IMG/VR virus record: IMGVR_UViG_3300049048_000065
Span: 1-41,373 of that record
Direction: 5' to 3' (one strand)
Length of the DNA stretch: 41,373 nucleotides
Source of the DNA: a virus
The notes under the pieces were generated by a model, which searched no databases, was not told where the DNA came from, and saw only the letters and a program-made list of their open reading frames with translations. The first letter of the stretch is position 1. Every line of letters starts with the position of its first letter. A program made the position numbers and the translations under genes. Shown in pieces: positions 1 to 41,373 of this stretch.

Positions 1-279
1 GGTCTGGGGGGAAGGAGGGAGGGGGCAGGGGGTGTCACGCTCTGTCACAGTGACATCACGTGACGTCACGTGACTTTCCGTGACATCCTCACTTTCGGGC
101 TGGGCGATCATGGCCTTCTTGCGCTCGCGGCGGCGGGCTTGGCGCTCAGCATCGTTCTTGCGACGCGCGTCGAGGTCGGCCGTAGTCGCGTTCTCATGGG
201 CGCGGACGGCGGCGAGGATCATCTCAGGGGTCGCGCCGGCGGCCACCAGAGCCTCAACGATGGGCGTCAGTCGGCTCAC
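1..279 (-). CDS. N-terminal part of junction-spanning putative replication protein
   Basis: The gene starts at a GTG (277-279) whose bases overlap the TGA stop of the DnaB-like helicase, so the two are translationally coupled. It stays open to base 1 on a codon boundary. If the window is circular it continues in frame at 41373 and ends at 40924, giving 242 residues. The first 30 residues (TPIVEALVAAGATPEMILAA) look like a small helical unit. A basic stretch (RQARRRERKK), a Val-Thr-rich segment made by GTGAC-type DNA repeats, and a Pro-rich linker follow. Position directly after the helicase suggests a replication role (loader or origin-binding protein). No family is recognised with certainty, so the function is inferred from context. 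Confidence 0.75.
   Translation of the reverse strand, partial: MSRLTPIVEALVAAGATPEMILAAVRAHENATTADLDARRKNDAERQARRRERKKAMIAQPESEDVTESHVTSRDVTVTERDTPCPLPPSPQT
56..73. repeat. 18-bp perfect palindrome inside GTGAC/GTCAC repeat cluster
   Basis: Bases 56-73 read TCACGTGACGTCACGTGA, which equals its own reverse complement. GTCAC/GTGAC units recur on both sides from about 34 to 85. The cluster lies within the coding frame of the putative replication gene, next to a G-rich tract at 5-32. Such clusters are typical of initiator-binding sites, but they could also simply encode the Val-Thr repeats of the protein. Confidence 0.7.
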
Positions 280-4757: not shown

Positions 4758-4770
4758 ACCCCGGAGAGTG

Positions 4771-4831
4771 TGCAGGAATGCACGACAAGTCAATGCCGAA
4801 ATGCACACTCACCAAGCAGTGTGCTTGTGCA
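4771..4831. promoter_or_regulatory. Operator cluster of the lysogeny switch (three dyads)
   Basis: Dyads of form TGCA-N4-TGCA: 4771-4782 (TGCAGGAATGCA, flanked by G and C, perfect), 4794-4805 (TGCC-GAAA-TGCA) and 4820-4831 (TGTG-CTTG-TGCA), with centres 23 and 26 bp apart. A minus-strand TTGACT (4788-4793) lies between the first two, with 17 bases to CACTCT (4765-4770), a plausible cro promoter. CACAAT (4830-4835) could be a plus-strand -10 for the repressor. The perfect dyad is repeated identically near 6100. Confidence 0.75.
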
Positions 4832-4841
4832 CAATCACGGC

Positions 4842-5525
4842 ATGGCCGATCTCGCCGACGCCGCGCGCGCCTTCCTGACCAGAGCCGTTGAGGTTTCGGG
4901 CCTGAAACCGCACGCGCTTGCCAAAAAGGCAGGGGTGGCGCCGACGACGATCACCCGGCCGCTCAACGATCCTGAGTTCAAGTTCACGCCCAAGCCGGCC
5001 ACTCTCCGAAAGATCGCAGAAGCAGCTGGGCTAGACCTTCCGGCGGGGCTCGCCGCCGGCCCGGTTCTCCCGCCCACGCTACAAGAGCTTCCGATCGTCG
5101 GTCCAATCCAAGCGGGGGCCTGGCTTGCCTTGGATGAGACCGTGCAGGACGAGCCGATCTTCTTCACGGCGGTAGCGGACAGGCGCTATCCCCACGCCCG
5201 CCAGTGGCTGCGGGAGGTCCGCGGCGACTCGATGAATGCCAAGGGCATCATGCCGGGCGACCTCGCACACATCGTCGATCTCACCGAGGCAGGGATCAAC
5301 CTCAACACCGGAATGGTGGTAGAGGTGACGCGCACCAGGGCGGGAGGCGCCCTGCGTGAGATCACTCTCAAGGAGGTCGAGATATCGCCTGATGGCGTGC
5401 GGCTCTGGCCGCGCTCGACCAATCCGCGCTGGGCCGACCCGTTGATGCTGGACGACGGCAGCGGAGCGGACATCGAGGTCCAAGTCACCGGCCTGCTGTT
5501 GCAGGCGATCAAGCGGTTCCTCTAG
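4842..5525 (+). CDS. CI-type repressor with S24/LexA autocleavage domain
   Basis: 227 residues. The N-terminal HTH (about 20-48: LKPHALAKKAGVAPTTITRP) is followed by a LexA-like S24 domain. The nucleophile is Ser130 in REVRGDSMNAKG, the general base is probably Lys177 in EITLKEV, and an Ala-Gly cleavage bond lies at 91-92 (GPIQAGAWL). It should hold the prophage silent and self-cleave with RecA after DNA damage. ATG 4842 is preferred over the far-upstream frame start because that would run antisense through cro. No Shine-Dalgarno is visible; the putative -10 ends seven bases before the ATG, so the transcript may be leaderless. Confidence 0.93.
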   Translation: MADLADAARAFLTRAVEVSGLKPHALAKKAGVAPTTITRPLNDPEFKFTPKPATLRKIAEAAGLDLPAGLAAGPVLPPTLQELPIVGPIQAGAWLALDETVQDEPIFFTAVADRRYPHARQWLREVRGDSMNAKGIMPGDLAHIVDLTEAGINLNTGMVVEVTRTRAGGALREITLKEVEISPDGVRLWPRSTNPRWADPLMLDDGSGADIEVQVTGLLLQAIKRFL

Positions 5526-6004
5526 ACGAATTCGATCTCGCCGTGGTTCGGGATGGCCAGCCTCACCCCGAAGTCGCCCTCGTCGTGCTGGTTGGTGCGC
5601 CAGCCCCCGCGGATTCTCGCCCTGCACCGTGCGGCCATGATGTCCTTTGAAGCCATCTGTCCGGCGACTCGCTCTGCCTGTTCTCGCGGCAGATAGCCAA
5701 CCTTCTTCCCCTTGATCAGCACCATCACGGCGTTGCTGTCGTAGGCGTTCGATGGCTCGCGTTCGATGATCGCTTCGAACTCGGCGTCGTGTCCGTCTCT
5801 GGTGTGGGGGCCGCAAATAGCTTGTAGCGCGGACTGGTAGTTGCTCTCGCCGACCGCCTCCATCGGAAAGGATCCTTCACGCCACTGAATGCGGCGCAGG
5901 GGGACGGGGCGCGGCGCCTCAAACCTGGGCTTGGTCGGCGCGGTCGGGCGAGCGGGCAACTCTGCCGTCACAGGCCTGCCGAACAGCCAGTCGAACATCC
6001 CCAT
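5522..6004 (-). CDS. HIRAN-domain protein
   Basis: 160 residues. An N-terminal hydrophobic/aromatic stretch (MGMFDWLFG) and a Pro-rich linker precede a HIRAN domain (about 47-150) recognisable by AVGESNYQSAL, the NAYDSNAVMVLIKG core and KVGYLPREQA. HIRAN domains bind 3' single-stranded DNA ends or damaged DNA and occur in HLTF/Rad5 and as free-standing bacterial proteins. GGAGGG lies 5-8 bases before ATG 6004. The gene is convergent with the repressor, and both end in one CTAG. It lies outside both early operons, so it may be expressed from the prophage. Function inferred. Confidence 0.85.
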   Translation of the reverse strand: MGMFDWLFGRPVTAELPARPTAPTKPRFEAPRPVPLRRIQWREGSFPMEAVGESNYQSALQAICGPHTRDGHDAEFEAIIEREPSNAYDSNAVMVLIKGKKVGYLPREQAERVAGQMASKDIMAARCRARIRGGWRTNQHDEGDFGVRLAIPNHGEIEFV

Positions 6005-6070
6005 CACCACCCTCCGCGCTCCGCCTTCAGGCTAAGCGCCGGCAGCGTGCAGGCGAACTCCGGCAAACCG

Positions 6071-6896: not shown

Positions 6897-7489
6897 TGGC
6901 GACGCATGGCCCTGTTCGCATCCTGTGCGATGAGATCGGCTTCCCCTTCGACCCCCGTCTGGAGCGCGAGGACGTGTTCCTCGCCTTCGTCGGCGAGTTG
7001 ATTGAGGAGGTGGCGCAGGCGCACCGCATGGCGGTGGACATTCAGCCGTTCACCGGCAAGCCCGCCTCGGCTCACGCTGGCGAGATGGTCGCGGTCGCGC
7101 GCTCGATGGTGGCGCGAGACTTGGGCCTTTCAAGAGAGGCGCGGGAGAAGGTGGCGCGGAGCATCTGTGACCGCGCGCATGAAGTGAACCCCGACGACCC
7201 CGGCCACAAGTGCGATCACCTCGTCGACATGCTGGCGTCATGTGCGGCGGCGGTCTGGTTCGGTCTTCAGTGGCCGTGCCGCTCACGACATGCGGCCGAG
7301 GCGGCGCAACACGTCTGGGCGCAGGTCTACGGCGTCTCCCGCTTCGATGACCACACCCCGGCATGGAAGAAGGAGTGGGCCAGGTCGAAGCTGCAGAGCG
7401 CGATCATCTCGCTCCTGCCTGCTCGCCTCCGCGCCCCGTCCCCCACCCCCGAGGAACAGCACTCCAAGAAGGAGGGGGCCGATGCGTGA
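6896..7489 (+). CDS. 197-residue early protein of unknown function
   Basis: Starts at ATG 6896 (TGATG overlap; GGAGAAGG upstream). Acidic and mostly helical, with short segments such as FVGELIEEVAQAHRMAVDIQ and HKCDHLVDMLASCAAAVWFG. A polar tail with Pro/Ser ends it. I recognise no domain. It is the largest protein of the first part of the rightward operon. Confidence 0.8.
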   Translation: MATHGPVRILCDEIGFPFDPRLEREDVFLAFVGELIEEVAQAHRMAVDIQPFTGKPASAHAGEMVAVARSMVARDLGLSREAREKVARSICDRAHEVNPDDPGHKCDHLVDMLASCAAAVWFGLQWPCRSRHAAEAAQHVWAQVYGVSRFDDHTPAWKKEWARSKLQSAIISLLPARLRAPSPTPEEQHSKKEGADA

Positions 7490-7733
7490 GCTTCAGCTCG
7501 GCCAGCGCGTGGAAATGACCGACGCGAACGGAAGCATCATCAAGGGCCGCGTCACCCGCACCTTCACCGGCGCGGTCTGGGCCGTGTTTCAGCGCGGCTG
7601 GACGTGGCCGGACGGGACCAAAGAGCCTCGCTCGGACTTCGCGTGGTTCTTCCCACCCAACCGGACCCTGAACGACGAGCCGTCGATGGTCCTCCGCGCC
7701 TCCAACCCGGTTGAGAGGGAGGGGGTGAAGTGA
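7482..7733 (+). CDS. 83-residue beta-rich protein of unknown function
   Basis: Overlaps the previous gene by eight bases and has GGAGGGGG upstream. The sequence pattern (LGQRVEMTDANGSIIKGRVT, then GAVWAVFQRGWTWPDG) suggests a small beta barrel, like SH3 or KOW folds, but the family is not identified. The stop overlaps the next GTG start. Confidence 0.7.
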   Translation: MRELQLGQRVEMTDANGSIIKGRVTRTFTGAVWAVFQRGWTWPDGTKEPRSDFAWFFPPNRTLNDEPSMVLRASNPVEREGVK

Positions 7734-7963
7734 GCGACTACGGCGATCTGTGCCGGGATATCCGCGAGGCCCGACGCGAGGCGCGGGCCAAGCATGGCGT
7801 GCCGTGCCCGGTCTGCCCGACGAAGCGGCCGAAAGCGCACCCGTCGATCCTGCTGCCGCAGCAGCGGTGCAAGGTCGATGGTTATCGGGACCCGCGCCCT
7901 CGCACCCGCGACACCGAATACCTGACCCCCGCCCAACCCACCCCACAACAGGAGGAACGGTAG
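7730..7963 (+). CDS. 77-residue protein with CxxC motif
   Basis: GTG start in a GTGA overlap with the preceding stop and GGAGGGGG upstream. The basic N-terminus (DIREARREARAKHG) is followed by PCPVCPTKRPKAHPS, resembling a zinc-ribbon half site, then a disordered Pro/Thr tail. Unknown function. Confidence 0.65.
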   Translation: MSDYGDLCRDIREARREARAKHGVPCPVCPTKRPKAHPSILLPQQRCKVDGYRDPRPRTRDTEYLTPAQPTPQQEER

Positions 7964-8242
7964 ATGGCCGACTGGCAACCGATTGAGACTGCGCCGCGCG
8001 ATGGAACGACATTCCTCGCCCGCATCCCCGGTCATGGCGAGGATAACCTGATCTCCTTCCAGTGGGGCCTTGTGAACCGCGAGGGGCACGACTGCGGGTC
8101 GTGGACCTTGATGTCGGAGCAGGAGCCGCCCGAGGACTGGACTGACGGCTGGTGCTGGGAAGAGAACGAGGACGGCCTGCCGTCAACCCAGCCGACGCAC
8201 TGGAAACCAGCCCCCCACCCAAGGGGAGGCCTGATCCCATGA
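7964..8242 (+). CDS. DUF551-like protein
   Basis: 92 residues beginning WQPIETAPRDGTTFLARIPG and ending near THWKPAPHP, the opening and closing signature of the small phage DUF551-type proteins (WxPIxTAPxDG ... HWxPLP). The function of this family is not known. An AGGAGG sequence lies before the ATG. The stop overlaps the lipoprotein start (ATGA). Confidence 0.8.
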   Translation: MADWQPIETAPRDGTTFLARIPGHGEDNLISFQWGLVNREGHDCGSWTLMSEQEPPEDWTDGWCWEENEDGLPSTQPTHWKPAPHPRGGLIP

Positions 8243-11957: not shown

Positions 11958-12000
11958 TCAAGCCGCCAAGGTTTCCGCTTCGACGGGCGGCCTCAAGTGA
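11731..12000 (+). CDS. 89-residue protein, 3' end probably altered by the TnpB insertion
   Basis: Starts at ATG 11731 inside the end of the previous gene. The first about 50 residues (MVDKMGFNPFGTGLSEP; MVLVPRNTLEELLAACGKAL) look like a normal small phage protein. The last about 14 codons run antisense through the tnpB end, and a GC-rich hairpin (CCGGCGACGCCGG, 11936-11948) of the type found in the right end of TnpB elements precedes them. The C-terminus is therefore probably element sequence and the original gene end lost. Confidence 0.55.
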   Translation: MVDKMGFNPFGTGLSEPRIGPAADTPMVLVPRNTLEELLAACGKALSAPSTTSTAEQVGTEHPPLLSIPGDAGSGGQAAKVSASTGGLK

Positions 12001-13136
12001 CCTCCCTCCACGGACAGCAACGCCGTGCTTCGGCGCCGTATCTCCAGGGCCGCGTTCGTGTCGGCGTGGGCCTCGTGCCCACAGTGGACGCAGACGAAGG
12101 CCGCTTGGCTCTTGCGGCTTCGCGCGTCAACGACACCGCAGGCCGAGCAGGTCTGCGACGTGAACGCGGCGGGGACGTAGATCAGCCGGCCCCCGGCGGC
12201 TTCGAGTTTGTACTCCAGCATGGCCGCGAAGCGCGACCAGCCCTGCGCAAGGATCGATCGGTTCAGGCCAGCCTTCTGGCGGACGCCCTTGTCGCGGGCG
12301 CGGACGGTCATGGCCTTCACGTCCAGCGCCTCCAGCGCGACGACGCCGAACCGGCGGGCCAGGTTCGTGCTGGCGACGTGCAGGTGATGCGTCCGGGCGC
12401 GGGCCACGCGTCCGTGCAGCCGAGCGATGCGTGCGCGTTGCTTGGCGTGGCGCCGGGAGCCGCGCCTGCGGCGAGCGAGGATGCGCTGCGCCTTGCGGCG
12501 CCTACGCTCCAGCCGCTCAGTGTTCGGCAAGCGGACGTGCTCGCCCGTCGAGAGGCTGAGGGTGTTCGCCACGCCACGGTCGACACCCACAGAGGGCAGC
12601 GCGCTCAGGGCAACCGGGGCCTCACCAGCGTCGCAGGCAAAGACGACGCGCCACTGGCCTCCAGAACGGATGACGGTAGCGGTTTTCGCTGCATGCGGCA
12701 GGGCGCGGGTCAGCCGACACTTCACCCAACCGAGTTTCGGCAGCTTGACCTTGGCCCACTTCGCGTTCAGGCCCTGAACCGACACCTCGCGTCCCCGGAA
12801 GCGAATGCTGTCGTTCTCACCGAGGCGGCGGGGTCGCGGGTAGCCGCCACCCCGGAAAAAGGCCTCGAAAGCCTTGTCCAGATCGTTCAGCGCCGCCTCC
12901 AATCCGCATTGCGGCGCGGCGGCGATCCAATCGTATTCCGCCCGGAGCGCAGTCAACTCACGGCCTTGACTGGCAAGGCTGATCGAACGGCCCTCGTTGG
13001 CCTGAAACTGCCGCCAGAAATCACGACGCTGCTCGAAAGCCAGGTTGTAGACGAGGCGCGTGACGCCGACCCACTGGCCGAGGACTTCGGCCTGTGCGGG
13101 CGTAGGTTTCAACGGAAAGGAGAAGCCGCGATGCAC
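11958..13136 (-). CDS. tnpB: TnpB RNA-guided nuclease (IS200/IS605-type), stand-alone
   Basis: 392 residues from a GTG start (VHRGFSFPLKPTPAQ...), with the typical N-terminal helix-turn-helix region, RuvC I Asp (SVGVDRGVAN), RuvC II Glu (VVALEALDV), a complete four-Cys zinc finger (CSAC ... CVHC) and RuvC III Asp (HADTNAALEI). All catalytic residues are present, so it looks active. No tnpA transposase is present. TnpB uses an omega-RNA from the 3' end of its gene to cut matching DNA. It lies opposite to the early operon and is the only minus-strand gene between 6.1 and 15.4 kb. The longer reading frame starting at 13184 overlaps the next gene and lacks family sequence. Confidence 0.93.
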   Translation of the reverse strand: MHRGFSFPLKPTPAQAEVLGQWVGVTRLVYNLAFEQRRDFWRQFQANEGRSISLASQGRELTALRAEYDWIAAAPQCGLEAALNDLDKAFEAFFRGGGYPRPRRLGENDSIRFRGREVSVQGLNAKWAKVKLPKLGWVKCRLTRALPHAAKTATVIRSGGQWRVVFACDAGEAPVALSALPSVGVDRGVANTLSLSTGEHVRLPNTERLERRRRKAQRILARRRRGSRRHAKQRARIARLHGRVARARTHHLHVASTNLARRFGVVALEALDVKAMTVRARDKGVRQKAGLNRSILAQGWSRFAAMLEYKLEAAGGRLIYVPAAFTSQTCSACGVVDARSRKSQAAFVCVHCGHEAHADTNAALEIRRRSTALLSVEGGHLRPPVEAETLAA

Positions 13137-13183
13137 GCGCGAAGCGTAGCACAGAACGGCGGTTCGCAACACTGGAGGGCTCA

Positions 13184-13441
13184 ATGACCTACCGGGAAGA
13201 ACTGGCGGGGCGGTGCGAGGCCGGAGCGCGCCTCTGTCGGAAAGACGAGCGCAACACCATCGCCCTCCTGCTCGACGAAGCCGCCGCAGCCCTGCGCCAG
13301 TCTCCTACAGTGGAGGAGGTGGCACAGATGATCTGCTCGCGCGAGCTGGTTCTGGGTCGCCACACCGCATCGGATCGCAAGTGGACGACAGCGCTCGAAA
13401 CTGCCGCCCGGATCGCCGACCTTTATGGGAGGAGAGGGTGA
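13184..13441 (+). CDS. 85-residue protein of unknown function
   Basis: GGAGGG lies nine bases before ATG 13184. Helical, with a pair of Cys (GRCEAGARLCRKD; MICSRELV). It resumes the rightward operon after the TnpB insertion, and its GTGA overlap with the excisionase-like gene couples the two. No domain recognised. Confidence 0.7.
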   Translation: MTYREELAGRCEAGARLCRKDERNTIALLLDEAAAALRQSPTVEEVAQMICSRELVLGRHTASDRKWTTALETAARIADLYGRRG

Positions 13442-13914: not shown

Positions 13915-15114
13915 GTGGCGCGAGCGATCAACAGACTGACCAGCCGGGGCGTCGCCGCCCTGCGTGAGCCGGGGCTCCATGCCGACGGCCAGGGTCTGTA
14001 CGTACGCATCGACCAGACCTGCGCCCGGCGCTGGGTGCTGATCTTCCACCTCCGAGGGAAACGCCGCGAGATGGGCCTTGGCTCGCTCGAGGATGTCAGC
14101 CTGGCCGAGGCACGAGCCGCGGCAGAGGCGGCGCGGTCGCTGATCCGCGACGGGCAGGATCCGATAGAGAAGCGGAAGGCTGACGCTATCCCGCCGGTGT
14201 CCCGCCTGTTCTCCGCCGTGGCCGCGGACCTGATGGATACGCTGGAGCCGAGCTGGCGCTCGCCGAAGCAGCGCGGGCAGTGGGAGGCCTCGCTTGAGCA
14301 GCATGCGCCGGCCATCTGGAAGGCCGACGTCGCGGCCGTCGACACCGAGATGGTGCTCGAGGCTCTGAAGCCGATCTGGTCGACGAAGACGGAGACGGCG
14401 ACCCGCGTGCGCTCCCGGATCGAGCGGGTGCTCGACGCGGCCAAGGTCCGCGGGCTGAGGGCAGGGGAGAACCCCGCCCGCTGGAAGGGCCACCTCTCGG
14501 CCCTGCTTCCCAAGGCGGAGCGCAACAAGGACCACTTCGAGGCGATGCCGTACGGCGACGTGCCGGAGCTGATGAAGCTGCTCGCCACCCGAACGAGCAT
14601 CTCCTCCATGGCCCTGCGGTTCCTGATCCTGACGGCCAAGCGCTCCGGAGAGGTCCGCGGCGCCACGTGGGACGAGATCAAGGGCGACCTCTGGATCATA
14701 CCGGCCGAGCGGATGAAGGGCGGCCGGGAGCACCGGGAGCCGCTGTCGGCGCCGGCGCTCGAGGTGTTGAACCTGATCCCGACCGAAGCCCGCCGCGGCA
14801 TCATCTTCGCCGGCTGGAACGGGCAGCTCAGCGACATGAGCCTGTCCAAGGTGCTGCGGACCAACGGCTTCGACGGCCCGACCGTGCATGGCTTCCGCTC
14901 ATCCTTCCGGGACTGGGCCGGCGACTGCACCACCTATGCCCGCGAGACCATCGAGGAGGCCCTGTCGCACCAGATCGGCGACAAGGCCGAGCGGGCCTAT
15001 CGCAGGTCGACCGCACTGGAGAAGCGTCGCGCCCTCATGGCCTCGTGGGCCGACTTCTGCATCGGCCGCCGCGGCCAGGTGGTTCCAATCGGGCGAGCTG
15101 TCGACCGGGCATAG
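13915..15114 (+). CDS. int: P4-type tyrosine integrase
   Basis: 399 residues. The N-terminal DUF4102-like domain (LTSRGVAALREPGLHADGQG) and the central SAM-like core-binding region precede a complete catalytic set: Arg243 (KRSGEVRGATW), Lys in ERMKGGREH, His325-x-x-Arg328 (HGFRSSFRDWA), His352 (LSHQIGD) and Tyr362 (ERAYRRS). It should insert phage DNA by attP/attB recombination, usually in a tRNA or tmRNA 3' end for this subfamily. Start GTG 13915 has ACGGAGG upstream. Confidence 0.95.
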   Translation: MARAINRLTSRGVAALREPGLHADGQGLYVRIDQTCARRWVLIFHLRGKRREMGLGSLEDVSLAEARAAAEAARSLIRDGQDPIEKRKADAIPPVSRLFSAVAADLMDTLEPSWRSPKQRGQWEASLEQHAPAIWKADVAAVDTEMVLEALKPIWSTKTETATRVRSRIERVLDAAKVRGLRAGENPARWKGHLSALLPKAERNKDHFEAMPYGDVPELMKLLATRTSISSMALRFLILTAKRSGEVRGATWDEIKGDLWIIPAERMKGGREHREPLSAPALEVLNLIPTEARRGIIFAGWNGQLSDMSLSKVLRTNGFDGPTVHGFRSSFRDWAGDCTTYARETIEEALSHQIGDKAERAYRRSTALEKRRALMASWADFCIGRRGQVVPIGRAVDRA

Positions 15115-17124: not shown

Positions 17125-17298
17125 ATGCCGTGGTCAGACGCCCCTGAGCCGATCCCGCCGATGACGCCGCGCGAGCGAGTGCGGGCCGTCCTCGGCCGGC
17201 TGGGATGCGTCGGTATGCTAGGCCTTCTGACGGCCCTGATGATCTTCGCCTACGTGGCGTCGGACTGGTTGCCCGTCGCCTCGGCCGTGGCGCCTTAG
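17125..17298 (+). CDS. Small plus-strand membrane protein inside the lysis block
   Basis: 57 residues, one hydrophobic helix (GCVGMLGLLTALMIFAYVAS) after a Pro-rich, then basic N-terminus. It fills the 196-base gap between endolysin and holin, opposite to both. GGGTG precedes the ATG and TTAGGG could be part of a -10. Its stop (17296-17298) overlaps the holin gene end. Possible prophage-expressed moron or an antiholin; alternatively a chance frame. Confidence 0.5.
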   Translation: MPWSDAPEPIPPMTPRERVRAVLGRLGCVGMLGLLTALMIFAYVASDWLPVASAVAP

Positions 17299-17612
17299 CG
17301 GGGCTCGACGGGGACTGGCTGATCCGGGTCGTTGACTACCTGCACCGGCTGCGGCGTCGGGCTGGCGCCGGTCGTCCGGGCAATCTCAACATCGGCGGCG
17401 TTCCGATCGCGCTTGTAGACCTCGACCGCCTTGCCGACGAACAGCGCCCCCGCGCCTAGCCAGATCGCGCCGGCCAGAAGGTAGCCGTCGTTCCCGTCCG
17501 TGACCTTCGAGGCCATGATGATGCTGGCGGCCGTGGCGCCGATGCAGCCGGCCATGATGGAGATGGGTCGCGCCACCTCTCCGATGAACCACGCCAGGCG
17601 GTCGAGGGTCAT
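17295..17612 (-). CDS. Putative holin, two membrane helices
   Basis: 105 residues from ATG 17612, which has GGAGGAAG upstream and an ATGA overlap with the previous gene. Two hydrophobic helices (ISIMAGCIGATAASIIMASK and GYLLAGAIWLGAGALFVGKA) and a polar, Pro-rich tail fit a class II holin. It should time pore formation in the inner membrane and release the endolysin. Assignment rests on topology and location. Confidence 0.7.
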   Translation of the reverse strand: MTLDRLAWFIGEVARPISIMAGCIGATAASIIMASKVTDGNDGYLLAGAIWLGAGALFVGKAVEVYKRDRNAADVEIARTTGASPTPQPVQVVNDPDQPVPVEPR

Positions 17613-18028
17613 GCTCTTCCTCCGAACCATGCAGCGACAGCGAGACAGGAGCCGATCAGCCAGGGCGCAGTTTGGCGGAGCCAGTCGACCAGGCCCTTCG
17701 CGCCTCTCTGCTGGTCCCGCGTACTCTCAAGGTCGTCGATGCGCTTGGTGCAGGCCGCCACCAACCCTTCCAGACGCTCAATCTCCCGTCCGTGCTTGGC
17801 TTCTTCGAGGCGGATGAGGCGCGTGTTCATCCCGTCCACCTTCTCGGTCAGCCGCTCCATCGCCCGAGTGGATGCGGCGGAGTGTTCGGCCTGTGCCTTC
17901 CCCTGCGTTGTGACGGTGTCCGAGAGGGTCCGGAGCGTATCCGCGACCTGACGCATGGCGTGGATTTCAGCCATCGCCACGGCCTCGGGGGTCGTGACAG
18001 GCGTCATGATCTGGTCGCCTGCGGACAT
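17609..18028 (-). CDS. Coiled-coil protein with C-terminal membrane anchor (XhlA-like)
   Basis: 139 residues. Long coiled coil (about 25-110; LTEKVDGMNTRLIRLEEAKH) and a C-terminal hydrophobic helix (APWLIGSCLAVAAWF). This layout resembles phage hemolysin/XhlA or DUF1640-like proteins located beside holins, which may help holin function. Between the fiber and the holin. Confidence 0.7.
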   Translation of the reverse strand: MSAGDQIMTPVTTPEAVAMAEIHAMRQVADTLRTLSDTVTTQGKAQAEHSAASTRAMERLTEKVDGMNTRLIRLEEAKHGREIERLEGLVAACTKRIDDLESTRDQQRGAKGLVDWLRQTAPWLIGSCLAVAAWFGGRA

Positions 18029-18067: not shown

Positions 18068-20725
18068 TCAGCCGATGGCGATCTCGACTTCACCGCGCGC
18101 CGTCCAGTTGACCAGCACGCCGCGGGCCGAAACGATGGACGACTTGAGCGTCGCCACGGCGCCACCCCGGACCAGCGTAACCGGCTGACCGATGAACCGC
18201 TTGTCCACCGCAACCCAGTGGTCCGCCAACGCACCGGGCGCGCGGGCGATCTGCCGCCAGCCGGCCGACTTCCTGACCACGAAGTTCCAGGTCAGGTCGG
18301 GGTCCAACGAGGGGTCGAAGAAGCCGGTGATCCCGGCCGCCTCATGGAGCGTCCCGGCTCCCGTCGCGGTATTCAGGTCGCCGGCGTAGAGATAGGTCTT
18401 TAGCGACGTGGTGATGCGCAGGTCGGTGGCCTGGCTGACGCGCGTGGCCGGGAGGCCCTGTCCCATGGTGTCGTCGAGGGTCGTGAACATGCCGAGCCGC
18501 GGCGCACCCGCAAGGCTGGCGATGTAGACGGCCGTCGTTACCGGAACGGCAGGATCCGCCCGCTGCGCCGCCGTGAACTCGAACTCCGAGGCCGGAGCGA
18601 CGGTTACATCGACACCCGCCTCGAAGTCGTCGGCGCCGATGGCCAGCGAGCCGGGAACGAAGACTTCCAGCGTCTGGCCGCCATTGATCCCCAGCTTCTT
18701 GGGCTGAGCGGCGTTCCATTGCACCGGGTCGTAGCCGATCAGGTCGTAGGCGGTCAGGACGCCCCTGACGTTGCCGGTCCAGTCGATCTCGTGGACGACG
18801 CCGAACTCGATCTGCCCGTCGATGTCCTCGTGGATGATCGAGTTGTCCGCGTCGCCGACGTTGGCGATGATGTATTCGACCGCCTTCTTCGGGTTCGGCA
18901 GGACGTAGCGCTCGCGGAAGCGAAGCACAGAGCCGGTGTAGAGTCCCTCCGGCTCCGCGTCCTGATCATCGAGCATGATTTCGACGGAGCGAGACCGGAC
19001 GAACGGCCAGACCTGCCCCGACGCATCGGCCGAGACGGTCCGGTCGGTCGTGGTCAGGTTGCCCGACACATGGGTCAGCGTCGTGCCGTTCATCGCCCCG
19101 GTGTAGAAGCTCCACACCGCGTCCGTGCCGCCGGGCTGGCTGACGACCTGCACCGTGTTCGCATCGGGGACCGTCGCGACCACCCACTCACGGACGCCGT
19201 CGCTCCAGACCGAGCCCACGCGCATACTGTGCGCCGTGATGGTCAGGTTGCGGCAGGGGAGGCCGTGGCCGCCCGCCAGCCATTGGCCGTTGATCCGGTA
19301 GGGCTCGGTCACGTCCCCGCCGCCGTAGATGGCGTCTTCTGACGGCGAGGGCGTAACCGCCCACAGGCTCGGAAACAGGCCCATGTCGAGATCGGCGTCG
19401 ACCAGCCGGGCTCCTTCGTGGTCCCAGAGGCCGTTGTTGTCGGTCGGGGCGATGTCGACCTCGAAGCGCTGCACAAGGGCGCGGTCTTCGAACCTCGTTC
19501 GCACGTAGCGGAACTGCGAGCCGTCGGAGACCGCTACCACATCGGCGGCTCCGTCGTAGCTGAGACCCGCCTCAGGCTGATCCTCTGGCAGGTTCAGGTA
19601 GCTTGCGGTGCCCGACACCGTCCCCCCCGGCACCACGTCCGCCATCACGTCCAGCCGCGAGATGCCCGCGTTGATGGTCAGGCCGATGAAGTAGACGATG
19701 ACGCCGGTCAGGTCCTGGCTGTTGAAGGTTGCCGGGACCGGGACGTTGCTCCGCAGGTACTGTTTCTTCACCCCGGCGGTGAAGCTCATGGTGGCGGTTG
19801 AGCCGGCGAAGCGAGCGTCTGCCACGGCTGACGGATGGCTGATCGACCCGGAAGCGCTGGGTGCCGTCCCGGTTCCGGTCCAGACGACATCGGTCGCCGG
19901 GTTGGGTTCCGGGGTCAGGGCCGCGCCGGCGCCTGCATAGCGCAGGATGACGTACATCTGCCCGCTGCCATTGTTGCTGCTGGCCGCGGTCTGGTTCCGG
20001 TCGCCGCCGTCCTGCAGCAGGATCATCCCCCGCGCATCGATCTTGGGCGGGGTCGTGTCGTCGGGGGTGACACCCATCTCGACCAGCTCGTCTGCGGTCG
20101 CGGAGAAACCGCCTCGAGGCTGGGAGGCGCCCGCCACGTCCGTGGTCTTCCCGTAGATGCCGAGTGCGTTCGGGTAGCCGTAGTTCGACCGGAGATAGGC
20201 GGAGTCGACGTTGGCGACCGATGAGAACGTCCCCGGGTCCCCTCCATGCCGACCGCTCACCGTCGCGTCACGCGTGAACCTCTCGCGAAGGCCCTGTATG
20301 GGCGTGCGTGTCGCGAGCGGCGCGATGTACGCCACCCGGTTCAATGCCGAGGCCGCCGCGGTCTCGGCTCGATCGGCATCGGCAGCCACGCCGTCGAGGA
20401 CGCTCGCGGGGACAAGGTCGCTGATCCAGACCCATGCCGAACCGCTCCAGCCGTAGACGCCGTTCCCGTCGACGACATCGCCCGCCGGGTCTGCCCGGAC
20501 CTCCGCGCGCTCCCCGACCTCCGATGGCGAAAGAGACGCCAGATCTGCGACCGTCTCGACCACCTTCGTGGTCCCGGCCACCGCGGCCAGATCCACAAGG
20601 GCCGCCAGCCAGGTTCGAATGGCCGCCTTGTCAGGTTCGTTGAGGCCTGCAGCCGGCACTCCGGCGACTTCAAAGTCGCGGAAAGTCGCCAGAAGGCCGG
20701 CCTTGATCGACGCCGCATCAGCCAT
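18068..20725 (-). CDS. Tail fiber / receptor-binding protein
   Basis: 885 residues downstream of the tail-tip protein. The N-terminal part has helical adhesin-like linkers (ASVLDGVAADADRAETAAAS), then a long beta-rich region with repeated short strands and many Gly, Asn and Thr, typical of phage host-recognition proteins. No enzymatic motif is seen. Position after the J-like protein and before lysis genes supports the call. It should determine host range. Confidence 0.75.
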   Translation of the reverse strand: MADAASIKAGLLATFRDFEVAGVPAAGLNEPDKAAIRTWLAALVDLAAVAGTTKVVETVADLASLSPSEVGERAEVRADPAGDVVDGNGVYGWSGSAWVWISDLVPASVLDGVAADADRAETAAASALNRVAYIAPLATRTPIQGLRERFTRDATVSGRHGGDPGTFSSVANVDSAYLRSNYGYPNALGIYGKTTDVAGASQPRGGFSATADELVEMGVTPDDTTPPKIDARGMILLQDGGDRNQTAASSNNGSGQMYVILRYAGAGAALTPEPNPATDVVWTGTGTAPSASGSISHPSAVADARFAGSTATMSFTAGVKKQYLRSNVPVPATFNSQDLTGVIVYFIGLTINAGISRLDVMADVVPGGTVSGTASYLNLPEDQPEAGLSYDGAADVVAVSDGSQFRYVRTRFEDRALVQRFEVDIAPTDNNGLWDHEGARLVDADLDMGLFPSLWAVTPSPSEDAIYGGGDVTEPYRINGQWLAGGHGLPCRNLTITAHSMRVGSVWSDGVREWVVATVPDANTVQVVSQPGGTDAVWSFYTGAMNGTTLTHVSGNLTTTDRTVSADASGQVWPFVRSRSVEIMLDDQDAEPEGLYTGSVLRFRERYVLPNPKKAVEYIIANVGDADNSIIHEDIDGQIEFGVVHEIDWTGNVRGVLTAYDLIGYDPVQWNAAQPKKLGINGGQTLEVFVPGSLAIGADDFEAGVDVTVAPASEFEFTAAQRADPAVPVTTAVYIASLAGAPRLGMFTTLDDTMGQGLPATRVSQATDLRITTSLKTYLYAGDLNTATGAGTLHEAAGITGFFDPSLDPDLTWNFVVRKSAGWRQIARAPGALADHWVAVDKRFIGQPVTLVRGGAVATLKSSIVSARGVLVNWTARGEVEIAIG

Positions 20726-34057: not shown

Positions 34058-35290
34058 CTAGGCCTCCTCGGCCGCAGGCGCCGGCGCTTGGCCGGCCTCA
34101 GTGATCGGGACGTTCTGCATCTGCATCCGGGGCGTGTCCCCGCCCTCCACAGGGGCCATGTTCTCCAGCGCCCGGACCTCGTTGATCGTCATCCACCCGT
34201 TGGTCAGCGCCGACTGATAGAAGGAGGCCCGGCCGCCGCTGTCGCCGCGAAGCAGCCCCTCCAGGTTGAACTCGATCCGGTAGCCCTGCGCCCGCTCCAC
34301 AGCGGTCAGCAGTTGCTTCTCCAGCGCCTGTTCGATCCGCTTCAGGCGCTTGCGGAGCGTGAATTTCACGAAGCCGATGGTCTGCTGCTCCAGACCCGTG
34401 CCCCAGCTCGTCGACTTCTCGGTGTGGCCAATCATGTGCGGCGGCACGCCGTAGAGCCGGCAGACTTCCTCGACGCTGAAAGCCCGGCTTTCCAGCATCT
34501 GAGCGTCTTCCGGGGTCATGGTGATCTGCTGCCACGACATGCCTTGCGCCAGCAGCATCGGGCGGCCGGCGTTCATGGCGCCGGAGAACTTCTCCCCGAG
34601 GCGGCGCTCGGTTTCGTCGAACTGCTCCTTCGTGAGCGGGCCGCCGGCGGTCAGCACGCCCGTCGATCGGACGCCGTTGGCGAACATCGACCCGGCCGCC
34701 TGATTGGCCGCCACCGAGAGGCCAAACACCTGCCGGCCATACGTCAGTGTCGAAAGACCGCCCAGCGGCGAACCGCCGAAACCGCGGACGTGGAGAACGC
34801 TCTCCTGCGGCTCGTCGTAGCTCTTGCCGTTCTCCGTCCAGCGGTAGCGAAGCGATCCGTTCGACATCCGGGTGACGGTCGGGTTCCAGACCGGATGAAG
34901 CGCCACCAGGCGCCCACCGGAGACCTCCTTGCGGGCGTGCATGTTGCCGCGCAACTCCAGCGCCGCGACGCCGCCCTCCCAGAAGTCCATCGCCGTCTGG
35001 TCGTAGTTCGGGCTGTCGTGGAGGATCCGGTAGAGCGGGTGATCCCGCGCCACTTCCCGCCGGCCCTTGGCGTCGGTCCGGTAGACCATCAGCGGCAGCG
35101 ACGCGATCGTGCCCGCCAGCAGGTTCACGCAGGCCCACGCCGCCGACAGCGCCAGCACTGACGACTCGGTGACGTCCGCCCCCGAATAGGTGCGCTCCAC
35201 CGGCCAGCCGTCCGGCTCTGTCAGGTTTAGAACCCGGACGACCGGCTCGGCCGACTTCCGGCCGAAGGGCCACAGCGCCTTCAGGTTCAT
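34058..35290 (-). CDS. Portal protein, HK97 type
   Basis: 410 residues from ATG 35290 ([13 protein letters not shown]), overlapping the terminase stop by [44 protein letters not shown] and [20 protein letters not shown] are diagnostic of the phage_portal family. It forms the dodecamer through which DNA enters. The longer frame adds 61 unrelated Arg-rich residues. Confidence 0.95.
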
Positions 35291-36975
35291 CCCTGAACCC
35301 CCAGGCTGGCGAGGTAGTCGTTCCATCCCGCCCCCTTCGGCTCTGGGTTCCGGCTCATCAGCATGGCCGCGTTGAACATCGCCACGAGCGGGTCGATCTT
35401 GGCCCGGCCGGCGCTCTGCTTCGTGATCAGCACGGCGCCGCCCCGGACCTCGGCCTTCGCGTTGCCGACGCACCAGGCCATCAGGCGAGAGCCCGAATGC
35501 CAGAAGGTGCCGTTCTTGAGCTTGATCTCCGTCCCCCAGGTCGCCGGCGACAGGGCCGAGCCCTGACGGACCGCCGCGAGCATCTCGCCCTCGATGTTCC
35601 GCTCGGCCAGTTCGTCGATCAGCGCCGCCACACCGTAGGGGTCCAGCCCGACCCCGTGCTTCTCGGGCAGGAGGCCCGCGAGCATCACCTGTTCGACCGC
35701 TTCCGCCGCCTGCCGGACCGGCTCCATCGGATCAGAGCAGATCACCAGATCGCCCGATCGCTCGAAGTCCCGCAGCACGGAGGCGATGTCCTTGCGGCGC
35801 TCCAGAACGACGTCGTGGGCCCAGCCCTTCGACCAGTTCAGCCAGTCTCGGGTCTTCCTGCAGCGTCCGATCACCGAGAGGCCGAACAGGTCGTCCAGAC
35901 CGCCGCCGTCGATCCCGCACGTCGCGACCTCCGACCGCTCCAGCAGTTCCTCCAGCGAGACCAGCGTGGGGTCCGCGGCGCCTTCCCAGTAGTCGGCCCC
36001 GCCCCAGCGGTTGTTCGACAGCCGGAGCCCGATCTCGACGTTCAGATGCTTGGCGAGGAATACCTGCCGCTCGCCGCCCGTCGCGTCCGCCACCTTGCGG
36101 AGCTCGTCCTCCAGCCACTCCAGATCGACCGAGCGACCGAGGTTCGGGTTCGTGATGTAGAAGTTCGCCGGGTCCAGATAGGCCTCGGCTTCGATCATCT
36201 CCGGCGGGAACTCGTAGATCACCGGCAGGAACCGCGGATCGACCACCTCGCCGTCGCGGACCCGCCGCGCATAGTCCAGCTTCGCCTTGAACACGCCCGC
36301 CGGCTCTTCGTCGGCCTGCGTCGACAGGTAGATGACGAAGCCCTCAGGCCGCGAGACCAGACCGCCAGTCGCCTCACGGAGCATCGCGTCGGCCTTCGGC
36401 TTCTTGCCGAAGATCCAGAGCTCATCCACCAGGACGAACGCTGCCTTCTTGCCCGACACCGTGTCCGCGTCGGCCGCGACGACCTTCAGAACTGCCCGGG
36501 TGCCCCGGTGAGTGATCGTCCGGGTGTGCTCCTGGACGTGCAGCAGGTCCGAAAGCTCGTCGTCGACCCGGATCATGTCCCGGGCCGGGTGGAAGGCGTT
36601 GTTGGCCACCTCCAGCGTAGGAGCCAGAAGGAGCAGCTCCGCCGAGTGCCGCCAGTTGCGGATCAGCGCCGTGAGCATGATCCCGGCGGCGACCGTGCTC
36701 TTGGCGTTCTTCTTCGAGATCAGCAGGAAGAACTCACGGATCAGCCGCCGGCCTTCCTCCGCGTCGTAGGCGCCGAAGATCGCCGCAACGAAGTCGAACA
36801 CCCACTGCTCGCAGGCCTCGCCGAACGTCGGCTGGCCTGGCGCATCGACGATCCGCAGCGACTTGAACACGTCCAGCGCCGCCGCCGCCTCGTCGGCGAA
36901 CAACGGAGAGGGGATCAGGGACCGCCGCGCGACGATCCGGGCCTGCCAGTCGGGACAGGCCGTCGACCACTCCAT
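35287..36975 (-). CDS. terL: Terminase large subunit
   Basis: 562 residues. The ATPase carries a deviant Walker A (SKKNAKST, about 87-94) and Walker B FVLVDEL (about 180-186). The nuclease has Asp in [15 protein letters not shown] and [14 protein letters not shown]. This is the Terminase_1/HK97-like form. It powers packaging and cuts the concatemer. Confidence 0.95.
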
Positions 36976-36981
36976 CGGACG

Positions 36982-37554
36982 TTACTGGACCAGCCGAAGC
37001 GGCGGGGAGGGAGCGGAGAACCGGCCTCCGCTCTGAGCGACTTGCTCGCCTCGCTTTTGCCGCTCGGCCTTCACGCCGGCCGGCGCGCCTGACTCAGCGA
37101 GAGTCTTGGCCGCGGTCGCCAGCGCCTTCAGGACGTCCGAACGCTGCTTCAACGACACTGCCTGCATCAGGGCCTCGCGCTGATTGCCCGGGTCGCCGCT
37201 GTCGGTCGCCGCGACGATCATCGACTCGAGCTCCCCCTGCCGGGTCGTCGTCGCGTCCAACTCGTCCATCAGTCGCATGACCAGGTTGCGCCCGCGTCCG
37301 ACGATGGCTTCCGGCGTGGTGTTCTCCGGCGTCAGGACGGTGCCGACGTAAACCTTCTCGGGCTCCGCGTTCGTAGTCTCCGGGCGCGAACCTTCCTGCG
37401 AACCGGGACGCTCCCAGCCTCCAGCCTTCGCCTTCTTGCGGATCGCGGTCTCGCTGATCCCGTACCAGCGGGCGATCTCCCGCACAGACATAGGGCTCGT
37501 GCGGTAGTCGCGCTCGATCTCGGCCCAGTCGACGGGCTTTCTGTCGTCGGCCAT
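36982..37554 (-). CDS. terS: Terminase small subunit
   Basis: 190 residues from ATG 37554 (MADDRKPVDWAE). HTH near the N-terminus (SVREIARWYGISETAIRKKA), a coiled middle and a tail with KALATAAKTLAESG. Recognises the packaging start. The longer frame adds residues with no homology signal. Seven bases from terL. Confidence 0.87.
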   Translation of the reverse strand: MADDRKPVDWAEIERDYRTSPMSVREIARWYGISETAIRKKAKAGGWERPGSQEGSRPETTNAEPEKVYVGTVLTPENTTPEAIVGRGRNLVMRLMDELDATTTRQGELESMIVAATDSGDPGNQREALMQAVSLKQRSDVLKALATAAKTLAESGAPAGVKAERQKRGEQVAQSGGRFSAPSPPLRLVQ

Positions 37555-37679
37555 GAGGGGCTCCCGCCGGCCCGGTTCGCAGGTGCAAACTCCCAGCCGG
37601 GATTTAATCTCTGAATGGGAGGGCGGCGGGTCGGAGAGAGACGGCCGATCCGAAGTCTCGACCACCCCCCCCAATGGCC
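37555..37679. other. 125-bp gap between HNH and terS, candidate cos/pac region
   Basis: Non-coding, directly upstream of the small terminase gene, where HK97-like phages carry the packaging site. GC-rich with a C7 run (plus strand 37665-37671). I see no clear dyad that would define a cohesive end. Confidence 0.3.
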
Positions 37680-38060
37680 TCAGTCCCACACCCCTCGGTG
37701 ATGCAGGCTGGACTGCTCTTCCTTCTGGATCAGGCTGTCGTGAACCGCCTTGGTGACGGTCTCGACGTTCGCCTCATCGAAGAACAGGGCGCGGTTCCCG
37801 CGATGGGGCTTCTTGTGGTTCGCGACCGGACTGTTCGGGGCCGGGTGCTTGCCGGCGCAGAGCTCGCCCGTCCGCTGGCAGATGTAGCCGTCGCGGGCGA
37901 AGACCCGGAGGCGAAGCGCCTTCCATGCTGCTGTGTCGTACCAGGCTCGCCAGCTTGCCTCCTGCCTGAAGCGCTTAGGGCTGGTCGTCTGGTGAGGCGG
38001 GCGGCCGATGCGGGCGGGGGCCGACCCGATGCGGGGCGGTAGCGATGAGAGCTTGGCCAC
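37680..38060 (-). CDS. Packaging-associated HNH endonuclease
   Basis: 126 residues. WKALRLRVFARDGYICQRTG, then SPVANHKKPHRGN and FFDEANVETVTKAVHD form a compact HNH finger of the HK97 gp74 type. In that group the HNH protein works with terminase to cut cos or mature DNA. Lies immediately before terS. Confidence 0.9.
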   Translation of the reverse strand: MAKLSSLPPRIGSAPARIGRPPHQTTSPKRFRQEASWRAWYDTAAWKALRLRVFARDGYICQRTGELCAGKHPAPNSPVANHKKPHRGNRALFFDEANVETVTKAVHDSLIQKEEQSSLHHRGVWD

Positions 38061-38149
38061 CTCGCCTCCGTGTGTCTCGCTTCACCCTGTTTCCCTGAGC
38101 TGGCCGTTGGAGAACCGCAGAACACAGACGGGAGGGTGCGGAAACGACG

Positions 38150-38181
38150 ACAGGCCCGACCGGGTTAGGGTGCGGGCCTGT
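38150..38181. terminator. Hairpin between GIY-YIG and HNH genes
   Basis: ACAGGCCCG (38150-38158) pairs perfectly with CGGGCCTGT (38173-38181), a nine-pair stem. No clean U-run follows on either strand. It shares the AGGCCCG/CGGGCCT core with the two hairpins near 15.5-15.8 kb. Possible partial terminator between early and late leftward genes. Confidence 0.6.
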
Positions 38182-38211
38182 CTCTTGGCGCATGACGCCA
38201 CGTTGGTCTTT

Positions 38212-38856
38212 CTATGCGGCCGTTTGCTGGGATTTGTCAAGGAACTCCTTGTAGCGGGCGTTCTCGATCTTCACCCAGATCTTCACCAGTCCGTTCAGCG
38301 CCTTTATGAGGCTGGCCTCCGCCTGTCGGGCCAGCCCCGGCTTGCGGTAGAGGGCGTGGCTGATGTCCCGGTTCTCCACGATGACCTGCTGGAACATGAT
38401 GTAGGCCGCCTGCCCAACCTCCTCCAGCAAGGCGCGGTTCACCCGAGCGATGAACGCTTTCTGCGTCAGGTCGTTCGCGGTGTTTCGGTAGCGGGTCACA
38501 ATGTCCAGCGACCGGGAAGGGTGGTCGGTCAGGTTGTAGCAGACGTTCGTGCTGAACCAATCGGCGCGCTCTCGGGAGATCAGATACTGCGACGCCACCG
38601 AGTCCAGGCTGGACTTGAGAACCGGCAGCGGCACGTCGAACCACTCGCCCCTCACGCGCCGCTCATCGAACTGCTCGTGCACAATCTGCTCAATCGTCGG
38701 CGCGACAGTCCATGGAACCGACACGCTGTGATGGATCGCGAGTTGCTGCCAGTTTCCCATCTGGAGGCTGCACAGACGACTCTTGATGTTCGTCGCGTGT
38801 CCGATCTTGATGGGGCCTGTTTCCGGGCCGATCAGGTAGACGTAGCCAAGTCGCAT
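38212..38856 (-). CDS. GIY-YIG nuclease (T5orf172/MUG113-like)
   Basis: 214 residues. RLGYVYLIGPETGPIKIGHA is the GIY-YIG-like opening, with an Arg in KSRLCSLQMGNW and the Glu in RRVRGEWFDV. The C-terminal two thirds are helical. It overlaps the end of the DUF6456 gene by 25 bases and has composition less GC-rich than neighbours, fitting a mobile or host-DNA-degrading nuclease. Confidence 0.82.
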   Translation of the reverse strand: MRLGYVYLIGPETGPIKIGHATNIKSRLCSLQMGNWQQLAIHHSVSVPWTVAPTIEQIVHEQFDERRVRGEWFDVPLPVLKSSLDSVASQYLISRERADWFSTNVCYNLTDHPSRSLDIVTRYRNTANDLTQKAFIARVNRALLEEVGQAAYIMFQQVIVENRDISHALYRKPGLARQAEASLIKALNGLVKIWVKIENARYKEFLDKSQQTAA

Positions 38857-39674
38857 TTCGCACCGTCCCGGTAGTGAGCGTGGAGGAGATCGAGAGCCAC
38901 AAGCAGAACTGCCTCAGTTTGCTGCGCTTCGGCCTCATTGTCACCCGCTATCGCCCGGATCGTCTTTCCCTCTCCACAGACCTGATTGCAGATGCCGATC
39001 ATGCGCTCGTGACTGTGGAGGCCGGACTGACGGGCAGACCGCAGCCGGAGGAACGCCTCGTGCCGCGCCTCCTGCATAGAGCCAGCATCGCCTCCGCCGA
39101 CGCTGTTGGCGATGCACGACCGCAAGCTGATGTCTTCGGCCTTTCGGTAGTCGTCGGCGTAGCGCTGGCCGGCGATCTGCTGCTCTGGCGTCAACCGCCC
39201 CTTCTTCCACAGCCACTCCAGACCGCTCCGGCGCAGCATCGGCTTGGCGGGCTCGCCCGGCTTCTTCGGCGGGCTGTCGATCTCTTCGCCCCGGCCCTTG
39301 GCGAGCGCCAGCGTCTCAGCCTCATGCGCCTCACGTTCGGCCCGCTCGATCCATGCCGCCCGCTCAGCATGAAGCCGCGCCATGTCCGCGACGCCCTTGG
39401 CCTGGGTGCGCGGGTCATCGGAGGCGATCTTCTGCTCTGCCCGCCGGATACGGGTGATCTGGGCCGTCGTCCAGCGAAAGACCGGCGCGGGCTCAACCGG
39501 CGCGGGCGCATGGGCTTGACGAAGCATCTGGCGTAGGATGCGGGCAGACGGCCCGTCCTTCACCCGAGGCTCGTCATTGGCGATCAGGTCGCCGTCGTCG
39601 TTGGCCGCGATCGCCTCCGGCGTCATCACCACCTTGCGCGGGGCGGAGGGCTTGTTCTTCTTCTTCCGGCCCAT
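38832..39674 (-). CDS. DUF6456 protein, possible late-gene regulator
   Basis: 280 residues. A low-complexity basic/Ala N-terminus, then LEWLWKKGRLTPEQQIAGQR, SMQEARHEAFLRLRSARQSG and ALDLLHAHYRDG, the DUF6456 signature. The family has no established biochemical role that I can state. Location just before the late genes makes an antiterminator or activator role attractive, but this is inference. The last codons overlap the GIY-YIG gene. Confidence 0.75.
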   Translation of the reverse strand: MGRKKKNKPSAPRKVVMTPEAIAANDDGDLIANDEPRVKDGPSARILRQMLRQAHAPAPVEPAPVFRWTTAQITRIRRAEQKIASDDPRTQAKGVADMARLHAERAAWIERAEREAHEAETLALAKGRGEEIDSPPKKPGEPAKPMLRRSGLEWLWKKGRLTPEQQIAGQRYADDYRKAEDISLRSCIANSVGGGDAGSMQEARHEAFLRLRSARQSGLHSHERMIGICNQVCGEGKTIRAIAGDNEAEAQQTEAVLLVALDLLHAHYRDGAKCDLATST

Positions 39675-40065: not shown

Positions 40066-40112
40066 GTTGTTGCGTCCTGTGAAGCGGCGGGGGAGGCGGT
40101 GAGGCGGGTCAT
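40062..40112 (-). CDS. 16-codon coupling ORF
   Basis: ATG 40112 overlaps the cytosine methylase stop by ATGA, and its TGA overlaps the DUF2493 ATG by ATGA. It encodes MTRLTASPAASQDATT. It contains repeat copy 2 and probably relays ribosomes between the two genes; a peptide function is unlikely. Confidence 0.45.
   Translation of the reverse strand: MTRLTASPAASQDATT
40075..40093. repeat. 19-bp direct repeat, copy 2
   Basis: Same 19 bases as 39686-39704, located between the cytosine methylase and DUF2493 genes. It provides AGGA ahead of the DUF2493 start. The pair brackets the DUF2493 gene exactly. Confidence 0.9.
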
Positions 40113-40927
40113 GCTGCGGTCCTCTGGGGGTGGGGCGGGTTCTGGTTGGCGGCGGGCAGGTAAGTCCGGGCGATATGCCGCGAGAGCGGCAGCGGTATCT
40201 TGGCGATCTTGGCGCTGGCGGCTTTGCGGGATTGTCCGCGCGTCGGGTTCTGGGCCACGTTCTTCTGGCCCGGCGAGCCTATATTGAACCAAGAGCCGCC
40301 GTCGTTCTTCCTGCCGTCGCCGCCATCATCCCAGCCCCGCGTGCCGGTGTAGTTCGCGCGGTTGACGTTCCATTGCTCGCCAGCCTTCACCTTGAGCCGC
40401 TGGTGATATTTCTGGGGTGGCATGAGGGCGGGAATGTCGCCCCATAGGAAGAAGGATCCGAACGCCCATTGAGCGCGACCAACCCACGGCTGCGCGCCCT
40501 TCACGTTCTCGACCACCATCGGGATAGGTGGCTGGCCGCGCGCCGCTCGGATGACGTTCGCCTCGCGCTGAATACGGAAGCAAGCGTCGAAGAGGGCCGT
40601 CAACTGTGCTATCGTGCGCGAGCCCTTGTAGCCCGCAGGAAACTCGTCCTCGCCTCGGAGTGCGCGGGCAATCTGTTTGGCCCGGCCCCACGGCATTGCC
40701 ATGTAGGAGTACTCAGTGCAGGGCGGCGAGGCGACGATCAAATCACCATCGGCCACGTCTTCGCCACGGAGCGTCAGAACGTCCGCAAGGACCAAATCGG
40801 CAGGGTAGCGCTCCTCGCCATACTCGTGCGCCTCGATATCGTAGCCACGCACCCGCCAGCCCTCGGCAAGCAGACCCTCCGTCCAACCGCCAAGGCCGCA
40901 GAACAGGTCGATCGCCAGCGGTTTCAT
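40109..40927 (-). CDS. Cytosine-5 DNA methyltransferase
   Basis: 272 residues. Motif I DLFCGLGGWTEG (7-18), the catalytic Cys in ASPPCTEYS (about 66-74), ENV motif VI (VVENVKGAQPW) and a closing motif X-like LSRHIARTYLPA. The variable target region between about 170 and 240 is Gly/Asn-rich and shorter than in classic enzymes. Probably an orphan methylase protecting phage DNA. Starts by ATGA overlap with the junction gene. Confidence 0.9.
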   Translation of the reverse strand: MKPLAIDLFCGLGGWTEGLLAEGWRVRGYDIEAHEYGEERYPADLVLADVLTLRGEDVADGDLIVASPPCTEYSYMAMPWGRAKQIARALRGEDEFPAGYKGSRTIAQLTALFDACFRIQREANVIRAARGQPPIPMVVENVKGAQPWVGRAQWAFGSFFLWGDIPALMPPQKYHQRLKVKAGEQWNVNRANYTGTRGWDDGGDGRKNDGGSWFNIGSPGQKNVAQNPTRGQSRKAASAKIAKIPLPLSRHIARTYLPAANQNPPHPQRTAA

Positions 40928-41373
40928 GCTGCCTGTTCTCCATGTGCGGGGGGATGGGAGGGGGTGTTGGTGTTGGCGGGGCTGTCAGGGCGCGGCCCCC
41001 AATCGGGTTCCCAGACGCCGGTGTCGCGCCAGTGACGGAGGCGACGGGCGATGACGGCGGGGTCGGCTTGGCTGGGTGGCGCAGGCTGGGCGGCGAGGTG
41101 GTCCCGCCAGTGCTCCCCGGCGATGACGAGGTGAACGCCCTTGGCGAACTCGCCCTGCGCCCGGCAGTGGTCCCGAACGCTGGCGATCAGCGCCTCGTCG
41201 GTGGCCCCGGCCCGGATGGCGGCGAGCACCGCCTTGCCCAGCGCCGGCCGGCCAGAGCGATCCCTGCTGACCTTCGACGCGGCCTGCCAAACCCGTTCGG
41301 TCAGGTCGGGCTCGGGCTTGGCGAGGGTGCGGCCCTTACGCGTGCGCGACTGTTCCCCGGGGGTGGGGGTGGG
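40924..41373 (-). CDS. C-terminal part of junction-spanning putative replication protein
   Basis: Open from base 41373 with no stop until 40924. Begins PTPTPGEQSRTRKGRTLAKP, continuing the Pro-rich linker that ends at base 1, then LTERVWQAASKVSRDRSGRP and a helical block (LAAIRAGATDEALIASVRDH) similar to the N-terminal block LVAAGATPEMILAAVRAHE. A Trp/Arg segment (ARRLRHWRDTGVWEPDWG) follows. GTG 41229 is an internal codon, not the real start, if the circle is accepted. Confidence 0.75.
   Translation of the reverse strand, partial: PTPTPGEQSRTRKGRTLAKPEPDLTERVWQAASKVSRDRSGRPALGKAVLAAIRAGATDEALIASVRDHCRAQGEFAKGVHLVIAGEHWRDHLAAQPAPPSQADPAVIARRLRHWRDTGVWEPDWGPRPDSPANTNTPSHPPAHGEQAA

Follow-up and report, generated by a model that had tools for sequence, protein, structure and literature searches.

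Assembled circles usually leave a terminal repeat of k-mer length, and CheckV takes a direct terminal repeat of at least 20 bp as the mark of a closed assembly (PMC8116208). GC-rich and G-quadruplex sequences are known to drop out of short-read assemblies (PMC7757076). Among described replication loci, two are closest to the one considered here: the DUF1376/PHROG primosomal proteins (phrog_9327), which are encoded after dnaB, and the lambdoid O gene, which contains an internal replication origin (PMC7466680). We analyzed a stretch of viral DNA of 41,373 nucleotides (IMG/VR record IMGVR_UViG_3300049048_000065), hereafter the window, in which a gene next to dnaB runs off both ends of the sequence. 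The features around these ends are as follows.

1–279, minus strand: 5′ part of the split gene (codons 1–93, GTG start, no stop)
40924–41373, minus strand: 3′ part of the split gene (codons 94–242 plus stop, i.e., 149 codons and the stop)
276–1679, minus strand: dnaB-type replicative helicase (PF03796, 1.6e-57), directly upstream of the split gene
40109–40927, minus strand: DNA methyltransferase (PF00145, 8.4e-6; phrog_363, 6.3e-12), overlapping the split-gene stop, directly downstream
1–32, plus strand: left part of a G-rich, quadruplex-type tract, joining 41359–41373
41359–41373, plus strand: right part of the G-rich tract, a GGGGGT repeat whose minus strand codes for a Thr-Pro linker
33–95, minus strand: array of 10-bp repeats of the TCACGTGACA type in the linker-coding part, candidate iterons

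An earlier, sequence-only reading had proposed that the window is a closed circle with one gene crossing the 41373/1 junction. As it claimed, the minus-strand frames 279..1 and 41373..40924 are in the same register and join on a codon boundary to give 242 residues, with the GTG start at 279 overlapping the dnaB stop codon as GTGA. The break does fall within a Pro-rich linker (PSPQT/PTPTPGE, where the slash marks the junction), and the AGAT blocks seen in the two halves are genuinely similar (local alignment score 52, matched by 9 of 2000 shuffles), a similarity that alone is no proof of the join. When two window positions were joined at random, 40% of the joins yielded an open frame of 242 codons or more that extended for 92 or more to either side of the join, and in 15% the frame was as long as the full stop-to-stop span (about 410 codons). 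On its own, the open frame is therefore weak evidence for a circle, and we rejected it as proof of circularity. It would also be compatible with a linear fragment of a larger phage genome, in which the frames match by chance. The lack of a terminal repeat also favors such a fragment: no exact direct or inverted repeat of 8–199 bp was found at the window ends, and the window does not carry the direct repeat of at least 20 bp that CheckV looks for. This absence of any repeat of at least 8 bp, together with nine extra bases in relatives (see below), counts against closure.

Relatives of the locus gave a different kind of evidence. A search for near-identical phage records had returned only short matches of 73–79%, and tblastn scans of phages with the joined protein had given nothing beyond weak matches to one half, in Tetraselmis-associated viruses (E 0.02). 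DnaB (window 276–1679) was used as bait for relatives, yielding contigs, viral ones among them, with DnaB identities of 76–77% (L002, L107, L108, L123 and L124). In L123 (also G007; IMGVR_UViG_3300014589_000012), a viral contig of 46,788 bp in which the gene in question is internal, one uninterrupted 225-aa gene directly follows a 76%-identical dnaB. Its product shares 66% identity with the joined protein over residues 1–222, crossing residue 93, and thus is the single continuous homologue of both halves that the earlier reading had named as a check. Taken separately, residues 1–87 of the 5′ part are 64% identical to the start of this single gene, and the 3′ part is 69% identical to the single genes of L123 and L124 (also G008). 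A profile-type search of the L123 contig with the joined protein matched residues 2–231 (E 1e-92). Besides the order of dnaB followed by one gene, L123 shares with the window the N-terminal module, the Pro-rich linker, the C-rich tract and the C-terminal module. It differs in being 9 bp longer at the break, and of the window genes compared with it, just three (dnaB, the split gene and 17609–18028) found a match.

The same arrangement was found at the DNA level. By blastn, window 1–1678 aligned with G007 18761–17108, and window 41373–40994 with G007 18771–19153, so that base 1 has its partner at 18761 and base 41373 at 18771, with nine bases between them and in the same orientation. The alignment extends to both extreme ends of the window. 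In L124, blastn likewise aligned window 41091–41373 and dnaB; here, the linker and C-terminal part, as in the window, lie within one gene behind the same dnaB. A single gene also occupies this place in L002 and L004. More distant single genes cover the break as well (residues 43–234 in G002 and G003, 86–224 in G001), and in G001 collinearity with the window extends from 38.2 kb via the junction to 3.4 kb. The relative contiguous over the junction is thus G007, with G008, G001, G002 and G003 in agreement. For a linear fragment of a larger genome, both ends would have to match adjoining parts of one gene, 9 bp apart and in the same orientation, with collinear flanks in G001 and a full set of phage modules in between; we consider this very improbable. 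On comparison with these relatives, the two contig ends are neighbours in the genome, in support of the proposed circle.

Joined, the ends form a 47-nt run of G-tracts, reading GGGGGTGGGGGTGGG up to the junction and GGTCTGGGGGGAAGGAGGGAGGGGGCAGGGGG beyond it, which holds the G-richest 40-mer of the circle. Very few places in the window are as G-rich as its first 32 or its last 15 bases, and only 16 window positions have as many G in 32 nt as 1–32. L108, an independent contig from a Brevundimonas MAG, breaks off within this tract too, 234 bp past dnaB; a search at the other end of that contig for the gene's second half gave no match in that genome. Since both window ends lie in the G-richest tract, and L108 stops there too, they almost certainly represent an assembly break and not a physical end. 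Tailed phages can have fixed ends at which a contig may stop, and the window ends might accordingly have been the physical ends of a linear genome in the virion (cos or a defined packaging end). However, these ends cut through the reading frame of a conserved gene, with the small terminase gene about 3.7 kb away, the relatives are continuous through the site, and the tract is explained by its G-richness, with L108, part of a bacterial MAG, ending there as well. Physical termini are thus extremely improbable. Under an assembly break, loss of coverage at the tract would be the cause, and the absence of a terminal repeat would fit such a coverage gap rather than a graph loop. In the scenario that we favor, the genome of an unclassified temperate siphovirus-type phage would have been sequenced from DNA that was circular, concatemeric or permuted, assembly would have failed at the one 47-nt G-rich tract between dnaB and the methyltransferase gene, and both the start and the end of the contig would have been set by that failure.

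The sequence-only reading had cautioned that a few bases could be missing at the junction. This was borne out: three relatives carry nine extra bases exactly at the break, which encode PQQ in L123 and L124, while the window is without them. The exact joined sequence is uncertain for this reason. Nine bases (three codons) may be missing, and the true genome length may be either 41,373 or about 41,382 bp, with the frame kept either way. A larger piece could also have been lost between adjacent ends, for example an in-frame insertion like the HNH domain found in the N-terminal half of the same gene in L124 (PF01844, 1.6e-7). Microsatellite and G-rich tracts do collapse during assembly, and the relatives are 9 nt longer, but the L123 protein, whose N-terminal module is the same, can be aligned over its full length with just 3 extra residues at the break, and the GGGGGT phase is unbroken over the join. 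A larger gap is therefore unlikely.

The integration and packaging genes of the window lie as follows.

13915–15114, plus strand: tyrosine integrase (PF22022, 7.1e-24; phrog_1, 5.2e-34)
35287–36975, minus strand: terminase large subunit (phrog_9, 4.7e-124)
36982–37689: terminase small subunit (phrog_1206, 1.4e-29)

Since the integrase gene is internal, with phage genes on both sides, the contig is not a prophage cut at att; since both terminase genes are internal, the window ends are not right at these genes either. No tRNA that might hint at an att site was found in the window. The window encodes the integrase, an S24-type repressor, exonuclease VIII, a RecT-like annealing protein, DnaB and methyltransferases, as well as small and large terminase, portal, protease, major capsid and connectors. 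It also has tail tube, tape measure and fibre/J genes, along with a transglycosylase-type lysis or tail enzyme. We conclude that the window almost certainly represents an essentially complete temperate phage genome, broken only at the G-rich tract in the split gene. Among the genomes compared, its DnaB is nearest to the Brevundimonas contig, and the GC content of the window is 68%; for these reasons, a host in the Caulobacteraceae is likely, and the host is probably a member of this family or another Alphaproteobacterium.

With the ends joined, the leftward genes were expected to form one unbroken block from cro to the spanins. This holds roughly, in that the block runs from cro (4530–4808) across the junction as far as the lysis region at around 16.5 kb, but two further leftward genes lie outside it, and no family support was found for spanins at its end. 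Of the genes there, 17295–17630 looks like a holin, and 17609–18028 resembles a coiled-coil protein that has a membrane helix at its C-terminus. The first of the outlying genes (5522–6010, minus strand) encodes a HIRAN-domain protein and lies beside the repressor, opposite to the direction of its neighbours. The second (11958–13184, minus strand) is TnpB-like (IS605 OrfB/Cas12f-like) and sits inside the rightward early block; no TnpA was noticed. Two other genes in the window stood out. A T5orf172/MUG113 (GIY-YIG-type) gene (38212–38856, minus strand) separates the replication genes from the gene for the small terminase subunit, and has a 47% identical counterpart in the same relative place in G001. 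An 885-aa protein (18068–20725, minus strand), encoded next to the tail fibre gene, has no PHROG or Pfam match.

The product of the split gene would begin with a helical module, followed by a disordered, Pro-rich linker and, at the C-terminus, a conserved module (ARRLRHxRDTGxWxxxWGPxP). Pfam and PHROG searches gave no strong family match for the window protein itself; its left half has a weak profile match to phrog_2447, 'replication initiation protein' (1.3e-5). Pfam matches to CSN5_C and DUF5069 were below the cut-off and were disregarded. The gene at this place in L002 encodes a DUF1376/primosomal protein (PF07120, 5.7e-23; phrog_9327, 9.9e-30), and that in L004 a related primosomal/replication initiation protein. 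The C-terminal motif is common to the window protein and these DUF1376-group relatives. The split gene is located directly after dnaB, and the genes for the PHROG primosomal proteins of L002, L004 and L107 have the corresponding place after dnaB. In contrast to that group, the window and L123 have a short helical module instead of the DUF1376 N-terminal domain, which Pfam detected neither in the two halves, separately or joined, nor in L123. A structure predicted for the L123 homologue, with low confidence (mean pLDDT 60), has helical N- and C-termini and a disordered linker at 62–109 that contains the break; only the helical N-terminus and this linker were used from the model. Judged by its position and its relatives, the split-gene product is probably a helicase-loader-type or primosomal replication protein that acts with the adjacent DnaB.

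The linker-coding DNA contains a short repeat array just before the conserved C/G-rich tract. The 10-bp TCACGTGACA repeats are found in the window and L123 (array score 46–49), whereas L124 has 4.8 copies of a 12-bp repeat, AACGCGTCACAT (7619–7676, score 116), and 11-bp arrays are present in L108 (9544–9591) and L130 (about 366–403 nt after the dnaB stop). The repeats thus differ with each version of the N-terminal part while keeping their place before the tract. Within dnaB of the ten closest sets, no array of comparable score was found. Segment 33–82 is 96% identical to L123, the most conserved 50 nt in 2 kb, and third codon positions in the repeats and tract agree at 26 of 31 sites, compared to 247 of 466 in dnaB (p 5e-4). 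With an AT content of 48%, the repeat segment ranks at the 99.85th percentile for the window, a value somewhat inflated by being the maximum over the searched segment; it is the AT-richest 60 nt within 1 kb (mean 32%), while not being AT-rich in absolute terms. The cumulative GC skew is lowest at 39.4 kb, at a distance of about 2 kb, inside the co-oriented leftward gene block, and the detrended skew at 37.7 kb (minima 37696–39396, about 2–4 kb from the candidate origin).

L123 and L124 share 94–95% identity in two regions, dnaB and the sequence that starts at the C-rich tract, but the intervening N-terminal module (L123 9401–9620, L124 7226–7680) is unalignable and has been replaced. The HNH endonuclease domain of the L124 replication protein (7226–8137) occupies about residues 64–147, and its best NCBIfam match, below the cut-off, is the HNH part of IscB. 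L107 has an HNH ORF (1671–2219) between dnaB and the corresponding replication gene.

From these patterns in the sequence, we tentatively suggest that the linker-coding DNA might contain a putative replication origin, and that the N-terminal module and its own repeats might be exchanged as a cassette, with crossover at the C/G-rich tract; we regard this as possible rather than probable. Alternatively, the repeats could simply reflect low-complexity coding of the linker. The putative origin would resemble that of the lambdoid O gene (PMC7466680) in having repeats in the middle of a replication gene, within coding sequence and beside the helicase system, and in its relatively AT-rich segment. 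It would differ from it in that no sequence similarity was shown, dnaB is encoded by the phage itself, the repeats in the window lineage are 10–12 bp long, and the flanking tract is G/C-rich, not AT-rich.

With its ends joined, a virus record that has no terminal repeats becomes an essentially complete genome, which points to a simple, general approach for closing such records, namely to look for a relative in which one gene covers both ends. The analysis also identifies a G-rich tract that halts assemblies at the same place in independent projects. If the suggested origin is real, it would represent a lambda-O-like arrangement in phages of a lineage that encodes dnaB, where the repeats lie next to a G-quadruplex-type tract, and an origin-like array that is swapped together with the N-terminal part of the protein would offer a direct test of where replication starts in these phages.
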